NCBI GenBank assembly: GCA_024434115.1
Contig: QMIT01000006.1
Location: 266,211 to 330,210 of the forward strand
Direction: 5' to 3'
Source of the DNA: Chloroflexota bacterium
GTDB lineage: Bacteria; Chloroflexota; Anaerolineae; Aggregatilineales; J027
DNA: 64,000 bases
Notes under the pieces: model-generated
The model's database searches: none
Seen by the model: only the letters and a program-made list of their open reading frames with translations
Told to the model about the DNA's origin: nothing
Program-made: the position numbers and the translations under genes
Part shown: piece after piece, positions 11,180-15,858 of the stretch
Numbering within the stretch: position 1 is the stretch's first letter
Layout of the letters: each line of letters starts with the position of its first letter

Positions 11180-12481
11180 TTAATGCCCCCGCAACATTGT
11201 ATCACCACTCCGCCATGCAGTGCCAAATAGTAACCCTGCCAACACAATTTCCGCTAAAACAATCGTCCACGCCGCACCTGTAAGCCCATATTCCCCAATC
11301 AGCCACACCCCCACGATCAACTGGATGATGAGTGCCACACCCGTGATCGCATTCACCCACCATTCGCGGTGATAGGCATACAGCCGCAGCGTGATGAGTC
11401 CGCGCAATCCCCCCGGCAAAATCGCCCACGCCAAGATGACCAGCGCCGCACCTGCCTGCTCAAAATGCTCACCGAATACAAACCGGACAAACGGCCTGCC
11501 TGCGATAAACGCCATTCCCCCAACTCCCACCCCATACACCACCAAAAACAACGCCGCCTGTCGAAATACCCGCCGCATTTTTGGGGGATTATCCACCAGC
11601 GCCACCAACATCGGAAACAATGCCCCGAACGCCGCATTGGGCAGCATCCGACCCGCCTCCACCACACGATTCGCCGCCGCGTACCATCCCACCGCCTCAT
11701 TTCCGACCTGCCCCTGCAAAATCAAAATCACCATCCGCAGTTGCAATGTTGCCAGCACCCCCGCCACCATAAACGGCCACGCCTGTTTAAGCAGATTCCC
11801 CATGTTAATGTCTTGGGCTTGCCGCTCCCCCTCGCCACGTTGGAGAGGGGGCTGGGGGGTGAGGTTAATCTTTTTCCATAGCCCCCACGTCGCCGCCAAT
11901 TGCACCCCATCCGCCGCGACGATCACCGCCAGCAACCCCACCACCGAGCCATCCATCAGCACGACGACCACCGCCCCAACCACCTGCAACGCCAAATAGC
12001 CCGTATTCAAAATCAAAATCGGCCACATCATTTCCCATGCCCGAAAAACTGCCGTATAGCTGGCGAATAGGGCATCAATCAGCGCCAAAAATATTCCGAT
12101 GCGTAACCCCGCGATAATTTGGGCATCATCACTCAACAAGGGTGCAAAAATCCACACCGCCACGATCACCCCTCCGCCAATCATCCAGCGTAACGGATGG
12201 GTCATGCTCAGATAGTGCTGTGCTTCATCCCGCTGTCGTGCCACATTCCGCGTAATCAATGTCCCGATGCCAAATTCGGTCAGCAGCGACAAAGGCAGCA
12301 CCCACGCCATAATCGCCGCGTATCGCCCCAACGCCGCATCACCCAATCCGCGTGCGATCAGGACAGTTAGGCTAAATGCCAATAGGGCAGTCAGGCCATT
12401 GTTGGCGAACAAAATGAGGGTATTATGTGAAAAATTATTTCTCAACGATGGGTTCAATATCGTATAAATCCAGCCAATCAA
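11180..12481 (-). CDS. Polysaccharide flippase (Wzx/MATE-like) with an in-frame repeat insertion
   Basis: A membrane protein of about 430 residues with 11-12 predicted transmembrane helices. It belongs to the polysaccharide/oligosaccharide exporter group of the MOP superfamily (FANNGLTALLAFSLTVLIARGLGDAALGRYA at the start is typical, here over several short matches). It would flip lipid-linked glycans across the membrane. The start is uncertain: TTG codons at 12481, 12457 and 12445 are in frame, no ATG is suitable, and the first overlaps the upstream gene by 47 bp. Around residues 206-220 a cytoplasmic loop carries LTPQPPLQRGEGE, encoded by the G-rich repeat at 11824-11866, which keeps the frame. 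It lies between the UPF0158 and SH3b lipoprotein genes. Confidence 0.85.
   Translation of the reverse strand: MIGWIYTILNPSLRNNFSHNTLILFANNGLTALLAFSLTVLIARGLGDAALGRYAAIMAWVLPLSLLTEFGIGTLITRNVARQRDEAQHYLSMTHPLRWMIGGGVIVAVWIFAPLLSDDAQIIAGLRIGIFLALIDALFASYTAVFRAWEMMWPILILNTGYLALQVVGAVVVVLMDGSVVGLLAVIVAADGVQLAATWGLWKKINLTPQPPLQRGEGERQAQDINMGNLLKQAWPFMVAGVLATLQLRMVILILQGQVGNEAVGWYAAANRVVEAGRMLPNAAFGALFPMLVALVDNPPKMRRVFRQAALFLVVYGVGVGGMAFIAGRPFVRFVFGEHFEQAGAALVILAWAILPGGLRGLITLRLYAYHREWWVNAITGVALIIQLIVGVWLIGEYGLTGAAWTIVLAEIVLAGLLFGTAWRSGDTMLRGH
11824..11866. repeat. G-rich dispersed repeat, copy 4, inside the flippase gene
   Basis: GCTCCCCCTCGCCACGTTGG then AGAGGGGGCTGGGGGGTGAGG. It aligns with the intergenic copy at 10027-10066. 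Read on the minus strand, it adds about 14 codons (LTPQPPLQRGEGE) to the flippase without a frameshift. An in-frame insertion of a palindromic element in a loop between membrane helices explains it best. Confidence 0.85.
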
Positions 12482-12875
12482 AGATGTATTCTCGCAAGCG
12501 TGATGCCTTATAATCGAACCATGCTTGTCGTTCTTCAGGATAATTCAGTAAGACATCTTTGAAACGGCGAAATGCTCCCGACCCATCAATGGCGACGGAG
12601 AGCAATTCTTGTAAATGTGGGTCTTCTACGAGGTCAATATAGGCTTGCATATGCCGATAGCTTTCGCGGGATTGAACTCTAGGCACTTCGACAAAACGAT
12701 CTGGGTCGTTCTCGACCTTCTGAGTTTCCTCTGGCATATCGTCAGTAAAAAACAGGACGTCGCCCGTCTCCAAATCAAAAAACAACTCTGTGCCATAGGA
12801 AGAATCCTCGACTACAGATACGAACTCGTCGAGGTCTATGGTGAGGGGGCGTTTTGGGCTATCATCATTTCTCAT
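12435..12875 (-). CDS. UPF0158 family protein
   Basis: A 146-residue soluble acidic protein of the UPF0158 family, whose function is not established. Visible family features are the N-terminal strand pair with FFDLETGDVLFF, the segment DRFVEVPRVQSRESYRHM, and the Trp/Tyr-rich end DWLDLYDIEP. It is the first gene of the minus-strand series that continues into the flippase, whose possible first codon lies within this gene's last 47 bases. It is divergent from the radical SAM gene at 12948; the 72-bp space must hold both promoters. No catalytic residues can be assigned. Confidence 0.8.
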   Translation of the reverse strand: MRNDDSPKRPLTIDLDEFVSVVEDSSYGTELFFDLETGDVLFFTDDMPEETQKVENDPDRFVEVPRVQSRESYRHMQAYIDLVEDPHLQELLSVAIDGSGAFRRFKDVLLNYPEERQAWFDYKASRLREYIFDWLDLYDIEPIVEK

Positions 12876-12947: not shown

Positions 12948-14450
12948 ATGACAGACATTCTTTTTGGGCAAAGTTATTATCTCCGATTCGACCCCAAATT
13001 ATACGCGGCGATGCAGCCCTATCCGCCGTTGGGCACATTATTCGCTGCCAGCTACATGCGTGACGCGGGCTATCAAGTCGCCCTATTTGATGCGATGCTG
13101 GCCGAATCCGAAAATGAATGGGCCGCTGCCTTAGATCGTTATCATCCACGTTTCGCCGTCTTGTTTGAGGATAATTTTAACTATCTCAGCAAAATGTGCC
13201 TGCTGAATATGCGCGAAGCCGCCTTTACCATGACCCGTATGGCAAAAGAACGCGGCATTCCCGTCATCGTCTGCGGCGCGGATGCCACCGACCACTATGA
13301 AAAATATTTGCAACACGGCGCGGATTACGTCATTCGTGGTGAGGGCGAACTCACCCTGCATGAATTGATGGACATGCTGATAGGCAAAAAATCACTTACC
13401 CCCGCCGATATTCAAGGCTTGGCCTATTTGGATGCTGAGGGTAAACCTGTAACAACTCTCCCGCGTGCCGTCATCAAAAATCTGGACGAACTCCCCATGC
13501 CCGCGTGGGAACTGGTGGATGTCGAAAAATACCGCCGCATCTGGCTGGAACGACACGGCTATTACAGCATCAACATGGTCACGACACGCGGCTGCCCCTA
13601 TCACTGCAATTGGTGTGCCAAGCCGATTTGGGGTCAGCGCTACAACGTCCGTTCCCCGCAAAATGTCGCTCAGGAATTGCAGTGGCTAAAAACCAACTTC
13701 CACCCTGACCACATCTGGTTTGCCGATGACATCATGGGTCTCAAACCGCGCTGGATTCAAGAATTTGCCGACGAAATTGAACGTCTCAACATCCGCACCC
13801 CCTTTAAATGCCTATCCCGTGCCGACCTACTGTTGGTCGAAGACACCATTCAGGCCATGCACCGCGCTGGCTGCAAAACGATTTGGATGGGGGCGGAAAG
13901 TGGCTCACAAAAAATCTTGGATGCAATGGACAAGGGCACTGCCGTCGCGCAAATTTATGAAAGCCGCCGCAAATTGGCCCACGAAGGCATTGAGGTTGGT
14001 TTCTTTCTGCAATTTGGTTACCCCGGCGAAACCCGCGAGGATATTGAACTGACCCTAAAAATGGTGCGCGAACTGATGCCCGACGATATTGGCATCTCGG
14101 TCAGCTACCCCCTCCCCGGCACAAAGTTTTATGAGCGTGTCCGTCAGGAACTCGATGAGAAAACGAATTGGACAGATTCGCAAGACCTTGCCATGCTCTA
14201 TCAGGGGCCGTTTCCAACCGAGTTCTATCGTCAACTGCACACCGTCGTGCATAAGGAATATCGTGCCCGCAAGACATGGCGTGCCCTAAAATCGGGTAAA
14301 ATCAACCCGATCAACCCCCAAAACCTGCGCCGAATTGGTGCGATGGGGTATCATAGATTGACATTGGGGGCCGCCCGCCGCAAATTGGATACATTGGCGA
14401 GCCAACCCCACCGTTCAACGACGATTCCACTGACGCCCATCAGTCAATAG
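12948..14450 (+). CDS. B12-binding-type radical SAM protein
   Basis: A 500-residue enzyme with an N-terminal cobalamin-binding-like Rossmann domain (about 15-150; PPLGTLFAASYMRDAG, YVIRGEGE) and a radical SAM barrel (about 200-420). The CxxxCxxC cluster is C216-C220-C223 in TTRGCPYHCNWC. This class includes BchE-like cyclases and methyltransferases acting on unactivated carbon. The substrate cannot be deduced. I see no canonical DxHxxG motif in the N-terminal domain, so cobalamin binding may be base-off/His-off or lost. The gene leads a three-gene unit: the next start is 11 bp downstream behind a GGAGG, followed by a 4-bp overlap. The downstream products are small membrane proteins, so a membrane substrate is possible. 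Confidence 0.9.
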   Translation: MTDILFGQSYYLRFDPKLYAAMQPYPPLGTLFAASYMRDAGYQVALFDAMLAESENEWAAALDRYHPRFAVLFEDNFNYLSKMCLLNMREAAFTMTRMAKERGIPVIVCGADATDHYEKYLQHGADYVIRGEGELTLHELMDMLIGKKSLTPADIQGLAYLDAEGKPVTTLPRAVIKNLDELPMPAWELVDVEKYRRIWLERHGYYSINMVTTRGCPYHCNWCAKPIWGQRYNVRSPQNVAQELQWLKTNFHPDHIWFADDIMGLKPRWIQEFADEIERLNIRTPFKCLSRADLLLVEDTIQAMHRAGCKTIWMGAESGSQKILDAMDKGTAVAQIYESRRKLAHEGIEVGFFLQFGYPGETREDIELTLKMVRELMPDDIGISVSYPLPGTKFYERVRQELDEKTNWTDSQDLAMLYQGPFPTEFYRQLHTVVHKEYRARKTWRALKSGKINPINPQNLRRIGAMGYHRLTLGAARRKLDTLASQPHRSTTIPLTPISQ

Positions 14451-14460
14451 GAGGTCGAGA

Positions 14461-14694
14461 ATGGCCTACACAACCAATGAAATATTGGAGCAGCCCTATA
14501 CGATGAATGAAAAGCCTGCATCCAGCCAAGAAAACAGTATAGAAGTTGAAGACACCGTTGGGGTGATTGTGCTGGGGTTTGTGTGCATCGTTTTACTCTT
14601 TGCCCTGCTCCGTGCCCAAAAACGCACCCGCCAATTGTTGGAACACCAACTGAAAGAATTACAGAAGGCCACTCTAAAGGAGGCTAACACATGA
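14461..14694 (+). CDS. Small single-pass membrane protein (paralogue A)
   Basis: A 77-residue protein with a polar N-terminus (1-31), one hydrophobic helix (about 32-50, GVIVLGFVCIVLLFALL) and a basic amphipathic tail (RAQKRTRQLLEHQLKELQKA) that can form a coiled coil. A GGAGG six bases before the ATG at 14461 supports this start over the ATG 14 codons later. Its stop overlaps the start of the next gene in ATGA, which implies translational coupling. The helix and tail share the pattern IVLGx…ALLRxQKRxRxLLE with the next protein, so they are paralogues. I know no named family. The tail should be cytoplasmic by the positive-inside rule. Confidence 0.75.
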   Translation: MAYTTNEILEQPYTMNEKPASSQENSIEVEDTVGVIVLGFVCIVLLFALLRAQKRTRQLLEHQLKELQKATLKEANT

Positions 14695-14945
14695 ACAGCC
14701 CAATTCTCAAAGAGGAAACCCAGACCGAAAACGCCAATCAACGCCCCGCCAGCCCGCCAATTGATAACGATGTGGATGTAGATGTGGATGTGCGCGAGGC
14801 CATCGGCATTATCGTCTTGGGGGTGATGTTTTTTATCGTGCTGATGGCCCTGCTGCGTACCCAAAAACGCGAACGCAAACTGCTCGAAGAAGTGGCGGAT
14901 TTGCGGGTCAAACTGCAAAAATCATCGTCCGAAGCAAAATCCTAG
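14691..14945 (+). CDS. Small single-pass membrane protein (paralogue B)
   Basis: An 84-residue protein with a polar N-terminus containing an Asp-Val repeat (about 26-34), one transmembrane helix (about 37-55, IGIIVLGVMFFIVLMALL) and a charged tail (RTQKRERKLLEEVADLRVKL) with heptad spacing. A strong AGGAGG lies just upstream of the ATG, which overlaps the stop of paralogue A by four bases. Together the two could form a heterodimer through their helices and coiled-coil tails. Their position directly after the radical SAM gene suggests they are its partners, perhaps to place it at the membrane. The transcript appears to end at the hairpin at 14988-15016. Confidence 0.75.
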   Translation: MNSPILKEETQTENANQRPASPPIDNDVDVDVDVREAIGIIVLGVMFFIVLMALLRTQKRERKLLEEVADLRVKLQKSSSEAKS

Positions 14946-14987: not shown

Positions 14988-15016
14988 GGGGCAGGTCTTA
15001 GCCCTGCCCTGTTTTT
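14988..15016 (+). terminator. Terminator after the radical SAM operon
   Basis: GGGCAGG (14989-14995) pairs with CCTGCCC (15003-15009) across a 7-base loop, followed by TGTTTTT. This is a standard intrinsic terminator shape. It is preceded by TTGTA and so begins GTAGGGGC like other short repeats in this window. Confidence 0.75.
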
Positions 15017-15107: not shown

Positions 15108-15470
15108 ATGCCAAACGGTGGTGTAATGCCTTGTTGTGCGGTCTGTCAATATGCTTCAAACCCGCCGGAGGATTTTGCAATCGAGTGCCAAAAACACAAA
15201 ATGAAAGTGACTTTTGCTTATTCGATGTTTTGTGCTGACCTATCTGACCCCCGTACCCCGGGATTAGCCAGCTTTATCGCAAAAAGTGAAATCCCCGCTG
15301 GCACGATGTACATGTGGGCCGGAATGTATACTCACCAAGAATATTCCTTCGCCCCCATCGAAACCTATGCCACTTGGTCGGACGAAGAAAAAGAAAAACA
15401 CTTCCGCGAAAAACAAGCTGATTGGGAAAGCAAATATCGCTCGATCTATGGCGATGATGCGTGGTTTTAG
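15108..15470 (+). CDS. Small Cys-rich protein, MPNGG type (intact copy)
   Basis: A 120-residue cytoplasmic protein. ATG at 15108 is preceded by GAGGAGGG and gives the start MPNGGVMPCC shared with the next copy. Residues 9-42 hold a CC-x2-C-x13-C-x2-H-x11-C pattern (C9, C10, C13, C27, H30, C42), which looks like a metal or iron–sulphur site. The C-terminal half has GTMYMWAGMYTH and a charged end (EEKEKHFREKQADWESKYRS) finishing in GDDAWF. I do not recognise the family and can only call it a probable metal-binding protein. It is followed 29 bp later by a frameshifted paralogue. Confidence 0.75.
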   Translation: MPNGGVMPCCAVCQYASNPPEDFAIECQKHKMKVTFAYSMFCADLSDPRTPGLASFIAKSEIPAGTMYMWAGMYTHQEYSFAPIETYATWSDEEKEKHFREKQADWESKYRSIYGDDAWF

Positions 15471-15499: not shown

Positions 15500-15858
15500 A
15501 TGCCGAACGGTGGCGATGTACCTTGCTGTGGCGTCTGCCAATATGCCAGTAAATTGGCTGACTCAAGCGGTATCGTATGCTCAAAACACGACATCAGGGT
15601 GACTCGTGATGGAAGCATGTTTTGCGCTGATTTATCGCATCCTCACTATCCGGGATTATCGCATTTTGTCGCACCAGCGGCATTCAAAAAGGGATCATGT
15701 ATATGTGGGCAGGGGTATATAGCCATCAAGAATTCCCCCTTGCTCCTATTGAGACGTTTGCCGCTTGGACTGAAGAAGAACGAAGCCAGCATTTTCGTGC
15801 CAAATGGAAAGAGTGGAAAGATGAATATCGCTCTAAACATGGCGACGATTGGTTCTAG
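15500..15858 (+). pseudogene. Small Cys-rich protein, MPNGG type (frameshifted copy)
   Basis: This is a tandem paralogue of the gene at 15108. ATG at 15500 follows AGGAG. The first part keeps MPNGG, PCCGVCQYA, CSKHD and MFCADL. Near 15686-15690 (five A before GGG) the frame is lost: the original frame runs on to a meaningless tail ending at 15877. From 15697, the frame one base back reads MYMWAGVYSHQEFPLAP and ends KHGDDWF at 15858, matching the intact copy. One extra A in the run would restore a product of about 119 residues. A homopolymer sequencing error, a recent pseudogene, or -1 slippage at CAAAAAG are all possible. Confidence 0.8.

Follow-up and report, generated by a model that had tools for sequence, protein, structure and literature searches.

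Twin one-helix membrane proteins encoded behind a B12-type radical SAM gene in one family of Chloroflexota

Gene organization at the locus

The window, i.e. the whole stretch of 64,000 nucleotides that was analysed, spans positions 266211–330210 of contig 21 of genome G000 (5.28 Mb, 22 contigs). Three genes on its forward strand, at 12948–14945, are the subject of this study, and their coordinates agree with those given in an earlier, sequence-only reading. The first gene, rSAM1 (12948..14450), encodes a radical SAM protein of 500 residues with a B12-binding domain, as identified from the ORF list, Pfam, its orthologues and a fold model. Its CxxxCxxC motif is intact, as had been claimed, with cysteines C216, C220 and C223 that are invariant in 56 orthologues. 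The genes P2 (14461..14694) and P3 (14691..14945) follow, encoding one-helix membrane proteins of 77 and 84 residues, respectively; both were delineated by ORF, paralogy, dN/dS and tree, and P3 in addition by a helix model. The overlap of P2 and P3 in ATGA was confirmed at 14691–14694, while the gap between rSAM1 and P2 measures 10 nt instead of the reported 11 bp, and about 22 nt elsewhere in the window's genus.

Strong ribosome-binding sites had been attributed to this unit; when read by eye, AGGAGG-type sites are present before P2 and P3, and none before rSAM1. A hairpin scan identified a terminator-like hairpin (14988..15010, forward strand), followed by GTTTTTG, at 43 nt behind P3, a place that suits the shared terminator postulated earlier. 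Chance alone would give about three such hairpins over the length that was scanned, so a shared terminator is plausible, not demonstrated. The hairpin is not a repeated element of the window, where it occurs in one copy only, and a genome search revealed no second copy of the three genes in G000.

Two genes on the reverse strand are divergent from rSAM1, i.e. a flippase gene (11180..12481; Polysacc_synt, PF01943, 86 bits) and, between this and rSAM1, a UPF0158 gene (12435..12875; PF03682, 75 bits). The latter is probably not part of the rSAM1 unit, and is absent between flippase and rSAM1 in three other loci (L036, L133 and L209).

The paired small proteins and the radical SAM protein

The proposed paralogy of P2 and P3 is borne out by 40% identity over 52 residues (E = 9e-12), and invariant residues common to both include G39, L43, G44, L55, R56, Q58, R60, R62, L64 and L65 (P3 numbering). 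The dN/dS values among five genomes of the genus are 0.05–0.07 for rSAM1, 0.06–0.17 for P2 and 0.02–0.08 for P3. These sequence comparisons indicate that all three genes are real and that strong purifying selection acts on them within the genus, and the possibility that P2 and P3 are spurious ORFs could be ruled out by dN/dS and conservation. In a tree of the small proteins, P2 clusters with the upstream and P3 with the downstream member of the pair of genome G009 (support 0.83 and 0.93), so that the duplication probably predates the divergence of these genera.

The model of P3 (11 sequences, mean pLDDT 68) consists of a single helix at residues 27–83, preceded by a disordered N-terminus. Both twins have an acidic N-terminus and an Arg/Lys-rich segment directly after the membrane helix. 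By the well-established positive-inside rule, acidic residues before and Arg/Lys residues after the membrane part suggest an N-out/C-in topology. The sequences thereby suggest bitopic proteins of this orientation, in which the helix runs on into a short cytosolic coil. Assignment of the twins to a known family of small membrane proteins was rejected, as no Pfam or NCBIfam model matched above its cut-off and only a weak match to a PHROG of unknown function was obtained. LapA, YajC and FixQ, whose Pfam domains gave weak matches, likewise have a single helix with a basic, coiled cytosolic part behind it, but all these matches are far under cut-off, the best being to the LapA domain (PF06305; 16.1 and 12.4 bits for the twins versus a gathering cut-off of 28), and no genomic link was seen between the twins and the partners of LapA, YajC or FixQ.

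In rSAM1, both the B12-binding domain (PF02310, 39.1 bits versus a cut-off of 32.1) and the Radical_SAM domain (PF04055, 64.2 versus 29.5 bits) were recognized by Pfam; in some relatives the B12-binding domain is degenerate. Orthologues within Chloroflexota are 60–96% identical (94–96% in the genus, 70–76% in most of the remaining family, and about 60–69% in other Chloroflexota), and long runs of invariant residues are found across many Chloroflexota. Orthologues of 64–67% identity also occur on contigs labelled as Bacteroidetes, Pleurocapsa, KSB1 and Terriglobia (L042, L048, L056, L064 and L099), reflecting either transfer or mislabelled or contaminated assemblies.

The best NCBIfam match of rSAM1 is the equivalog model of HpnJ (TIGR03471), with 153.6 bits versus a cut-off of 577.6, followed by BchE (TIGR02026; 150.9 versus 481.35 bits); AprD4 (NF033070) scores 64.2 bits versus a cut-off of 500, and rSAM1 stays far under the cut-off of every NCBIfam equivalog model. 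With HpnJ and BchE it shares the order of a B12-binding and a radical SAM domain and a similar length, but its scores lie between roughly one quarter and one third of the curated cut-offs, and it has other neighbours and its own invariant residues. The confident fold model of rSAM1 (pLDDT 87.6, pTM 0.87), in which no membrane helix is apparent, has as its nearest solved folds AprD4, OxsB, MgmA and TsrM (Z 22–26), all of them cobalamin-type radical SAM enzymes. The top whole-chain VIA-align match, tied with OxsB, is the radical SAM diol dehydratase AprD4 (PDB 6fd2; Z 26.2, 423 residues, 3.5 A), an enzyme acting on an aminoglycoside sugar; this sugar-type substrate may be counted as a likeness to the role proposed below for rSAM1, but sequence identity is 17%. 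OxsB, MgmA and TsrM resemble rSAM1 in fold along its whole chain, but have 16–22% identity, and other substrates and contexts. The rSAM1 family looks uncharacterised, with no described family accounting for the enzyme or for the twins, and would be a new subfamily and arrangement within a well-known superfamily.

Gene order and recurrent neighbours

Searching the genome collection for rSAM1 gave 233 matching loci, of which the best 80 were kept. In the window's family, the pair directly follows rSAM1 in genomes G000–G004 and G009, and in G005 at least one small gene follows before the contig ends, so that the pair or one of its members lies beside rSAM1 in seven genomes; the co-directional unit is kept in three genera of the family, that of the window included. 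In two other genomes of the family, G006 and G008, rSAM1 lacks the adjoining pair (G008 has both, at different loci), and searches of G007 found neither the enzyme nor the twins. Beyond the family, about 70 loci (among the best 80 of 233) were inspected, and at none of them is rSAM1 followed by a homologous small membrane gene; the linkage, and with it the three-gene unit, is thus local and specific to one lineage, the window's family. A dedicated three-gene unit, as read earlier from this sequence alone, holds as a conserved co-directional arrangement in three genera and not as a general layout; the suggested comparison of gene order across Chloroflexota found the pair, or one member of it, beside rSAM1 in seven genomes of the family and at none of the roughly 70 loci outside. 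On these loci, a dedicated three-gene system across the Chloroflexota could be ruled out, the pair being confined at this position to one family. In other families a different, soluble-looking small protein family (c20) takes the twins' place after rSAM1 (L041, L043, L053 and L068); its members have 77–87 residues and are mostly encoded about 60 nt behind rSAM1, and the L068 member has no Pfam match.

Many Chloroflexota have a paralogue, rSAM2, behind rSAM1 and about 35–38% identical to it (among the best 80 of 233 loci). The gene order in G009 is rSAM1, P2-like, P3-like, rSAM2. The contig of G005 ends in ATGGATATTCTCT, which overlaps the small gene's stop codon and shares 11 nt with the start of rSAM2 in G009; on the weak evidence of these 13 nt, rSAM2 is probably the next gene in G005 too. 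It is also present in G006 and G007 and as a fragment in G008, and absent from all five genomes of the window's genus. In the most parsimonious history, an ancestor of the family had the pair between rSAM1 and rSAM2, the latter being lost in the window's genus.

Profiles built from the pair identified relatives of the twins in other families of the order (nine genomes) and elsewhere in the class (four to five further genomes); 13 of these genomes were considered. In these 13 genomes outside the family they are encoded at unrelated loci, next to, for example, phosphomannomutase-like, rRNA-methyltransferase-like and FAD-oxidase-like genes (named by eye), and rSAM1 is absent from eight of the 13. 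Further tandem overlapping pairs lie away from any radical SAM gene (L136, 5419–5797, and L140, 2331–2709). The weak matches L172, L173 and the second gene of L136 may represent chance likeness among one-helix proteins. As the twins occur without the enzyme in eight of 13 genomes and the enzyme mostly without the twins, neither needs the other. The sequence-only reading had named two observations that would speak against it, namely small genes not lying next to radical SAM genes in relatives, and twins occurring widely in unrelated places. Both were made in part, in view of the missing pair at outside rSAM1 loci and beside rSAM1 in G006 and G008, and of the twin homologues at unrelated loci.

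Clustering of the neighbours of the best 80 of 233 loci, which are related so that counts are not independent, revealed recurrent genes around rSAM1. Within 5 kb downstream, loci with enough flank contain a radical SAM paralogue (23 of 51), a methyltransferase (32 of 51) and a flippase-group gene (31 of 51), and upstream a member of family c2 or c4 was found in 48 of 61 loci. Family c2, recurring in 33 of 61 loci, has no Pfam match and appears nucleotidyltransferase-like by eye, and c4, likewise by eye, amidohydrolase-like; glycosyltransferase-like and O-antigen-ligase-like genes (also by eye) are added at some loci. The order rSAM1, (rSAM3), rSAM2, methyltransferase, flippase, with c2 upstream, is seen in L039, L042, L043, L059, L070, L085, L109 and others. 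The flippase of the window belongs to the same group as those following rSAM1 in many Chloroflexota, with 41% identity over 407 residues to that of L042. The remaining cluster partners are present but scattered in the window's family: a methyltransferase gene lies near a c4 gene in contig 6 of G000 and contig 286 of G009, and a c2 gene is located on contig 16 of G000. Given this recurrent linkage, the most fitting place for rSAM1 is in an envelope pathway rather than in a three-gene system of its own. The recurrent cluster, the loss of rSAM2 and the adjacent divergent flippase gene had all been missed in the earlier reading. A literature search on the cluster, and on radical SAM genes with small membrane partners, retrieved nothing relevant in the collection of papers searched, and nothing there on rSAM1 or the twins.

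Possible roles of the enzyme and the twins

In the earlier reading, the small membrane helices were suggested to recruit the enzyme to lipids or to form a receptor complex, either of which would be conceivable. We propose, tentatively, that rSAM1 works in the cytosol and belongs to an envelope pathway of Chloroflexota not yet described, in which it would probably modify a glycan, a polyol or a lipid-linked precursor, and that the neighbouring Wzx-like flippase would then move the modified precursor across the membrane. The twins, having arisen by a duplication that would predate diversification of the window's family, and having lain between rSAM1 and rSAM2, would pair in the membrane, where their cytosolic coils could hold rSAM1 near its membrane substrate. 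Taken as a whole, this reading of rSAM1 in an envelope pathway, with the twins as paired membrane tethers, is possible, with a likelihood somewhat short of even. It is favoured by the linkage of rSAM1 to flippase and methyltransferase genes, the adjacency of pair and enzyme in the family, the dN/dS values well under 1, the single helix of P3 and the AprD4-like fold of rSAM1, and disfavoured by the occurrence of twins elsewhere without the enzyme, of the enzyme mostly without twins, and of both at separate loci in G008, and by NCBIfam scores far under cut-off. The twins offer one family for asking whether dedicated small proteins hold such enzymes at the membrane. A bolder version, in which the twins are a heterodimeric membrane scaffold for both rSAM1 and rSAM2 in an undescribed Chloroflexota envelope-glycolipid pathway, and would be a class of membrane adaptor not described for radical SAM enzymes, we consider unlikely. 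Together with the genes that recur around it, the enzyme indicates a conserved pathway of envelope modification, of which the literature searched gave no description.

The twins may instead be independent small membrane proteins, e.g. membrane-stress or assembly factors, that came to lie behind rSAM1 in a single family by insertion and are co-transcribed with it, without a functional link. Homologues beside unrelated genes in the 13 outside genomes, eight of which lack rSAM1, and tandem pairs without an adjoining enzyme (L136 and L140) are in line with such independence. In addition, the gap between rSAM1 and rSAM2 holds other small genes in other families, e.g. a HicB-like gene, suggesting a site open to insertions, and for this reason we regard independence as about equally likely as tethering. 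Against it, adjacency is kept in three genera whose enzymes are 71–96% identical, and loss of rSAM2 did not separate the pair from rSAM1.

A role of rSAM1 in a hopanoid or other polycyclic lipid pathway, with the twins anchoring it to a membrane substrate, is suggested by HpnJ as top NCBIfam match (153.6 bits), with the BchE and ladderane-lipid models next. It is nevertheless improbable: all these models score far under cut-off, and the recurrent neighbours are flippase, methyltransferase and glycosyltransferase- or ligase-like genes, among which no hopanoid gene was recognised. Very improbable, and rejected here, is the proposal that P2 and P3 are peptide substrates modified by rSAM1 as in radical SAM RiPP systems: small ORFs do lie directly beside a B12-type radical SAM gene, and some relatives of the rSAM1 fold modify peptides or proteins (TIGR03975, MgmA), but the twins have no conserved C-terminal core and no exporter or peptidase gene was seen beside them, their conserved part is the membrane helix with the basic segment behind it, and twins and enzyme mostly occur apart.

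Directly downstream of the three genes, the forward strand contains another set of tandem paralogues (15108–15467 and 15500–15855). The first encodes a cysteine-containing protein of 120 residues outside any Pfam family; the second copy, about 53% identical to the first, is split between two frames and thus apparently frameshifted. The first copy is carried by other genomes of the window's genus as well.
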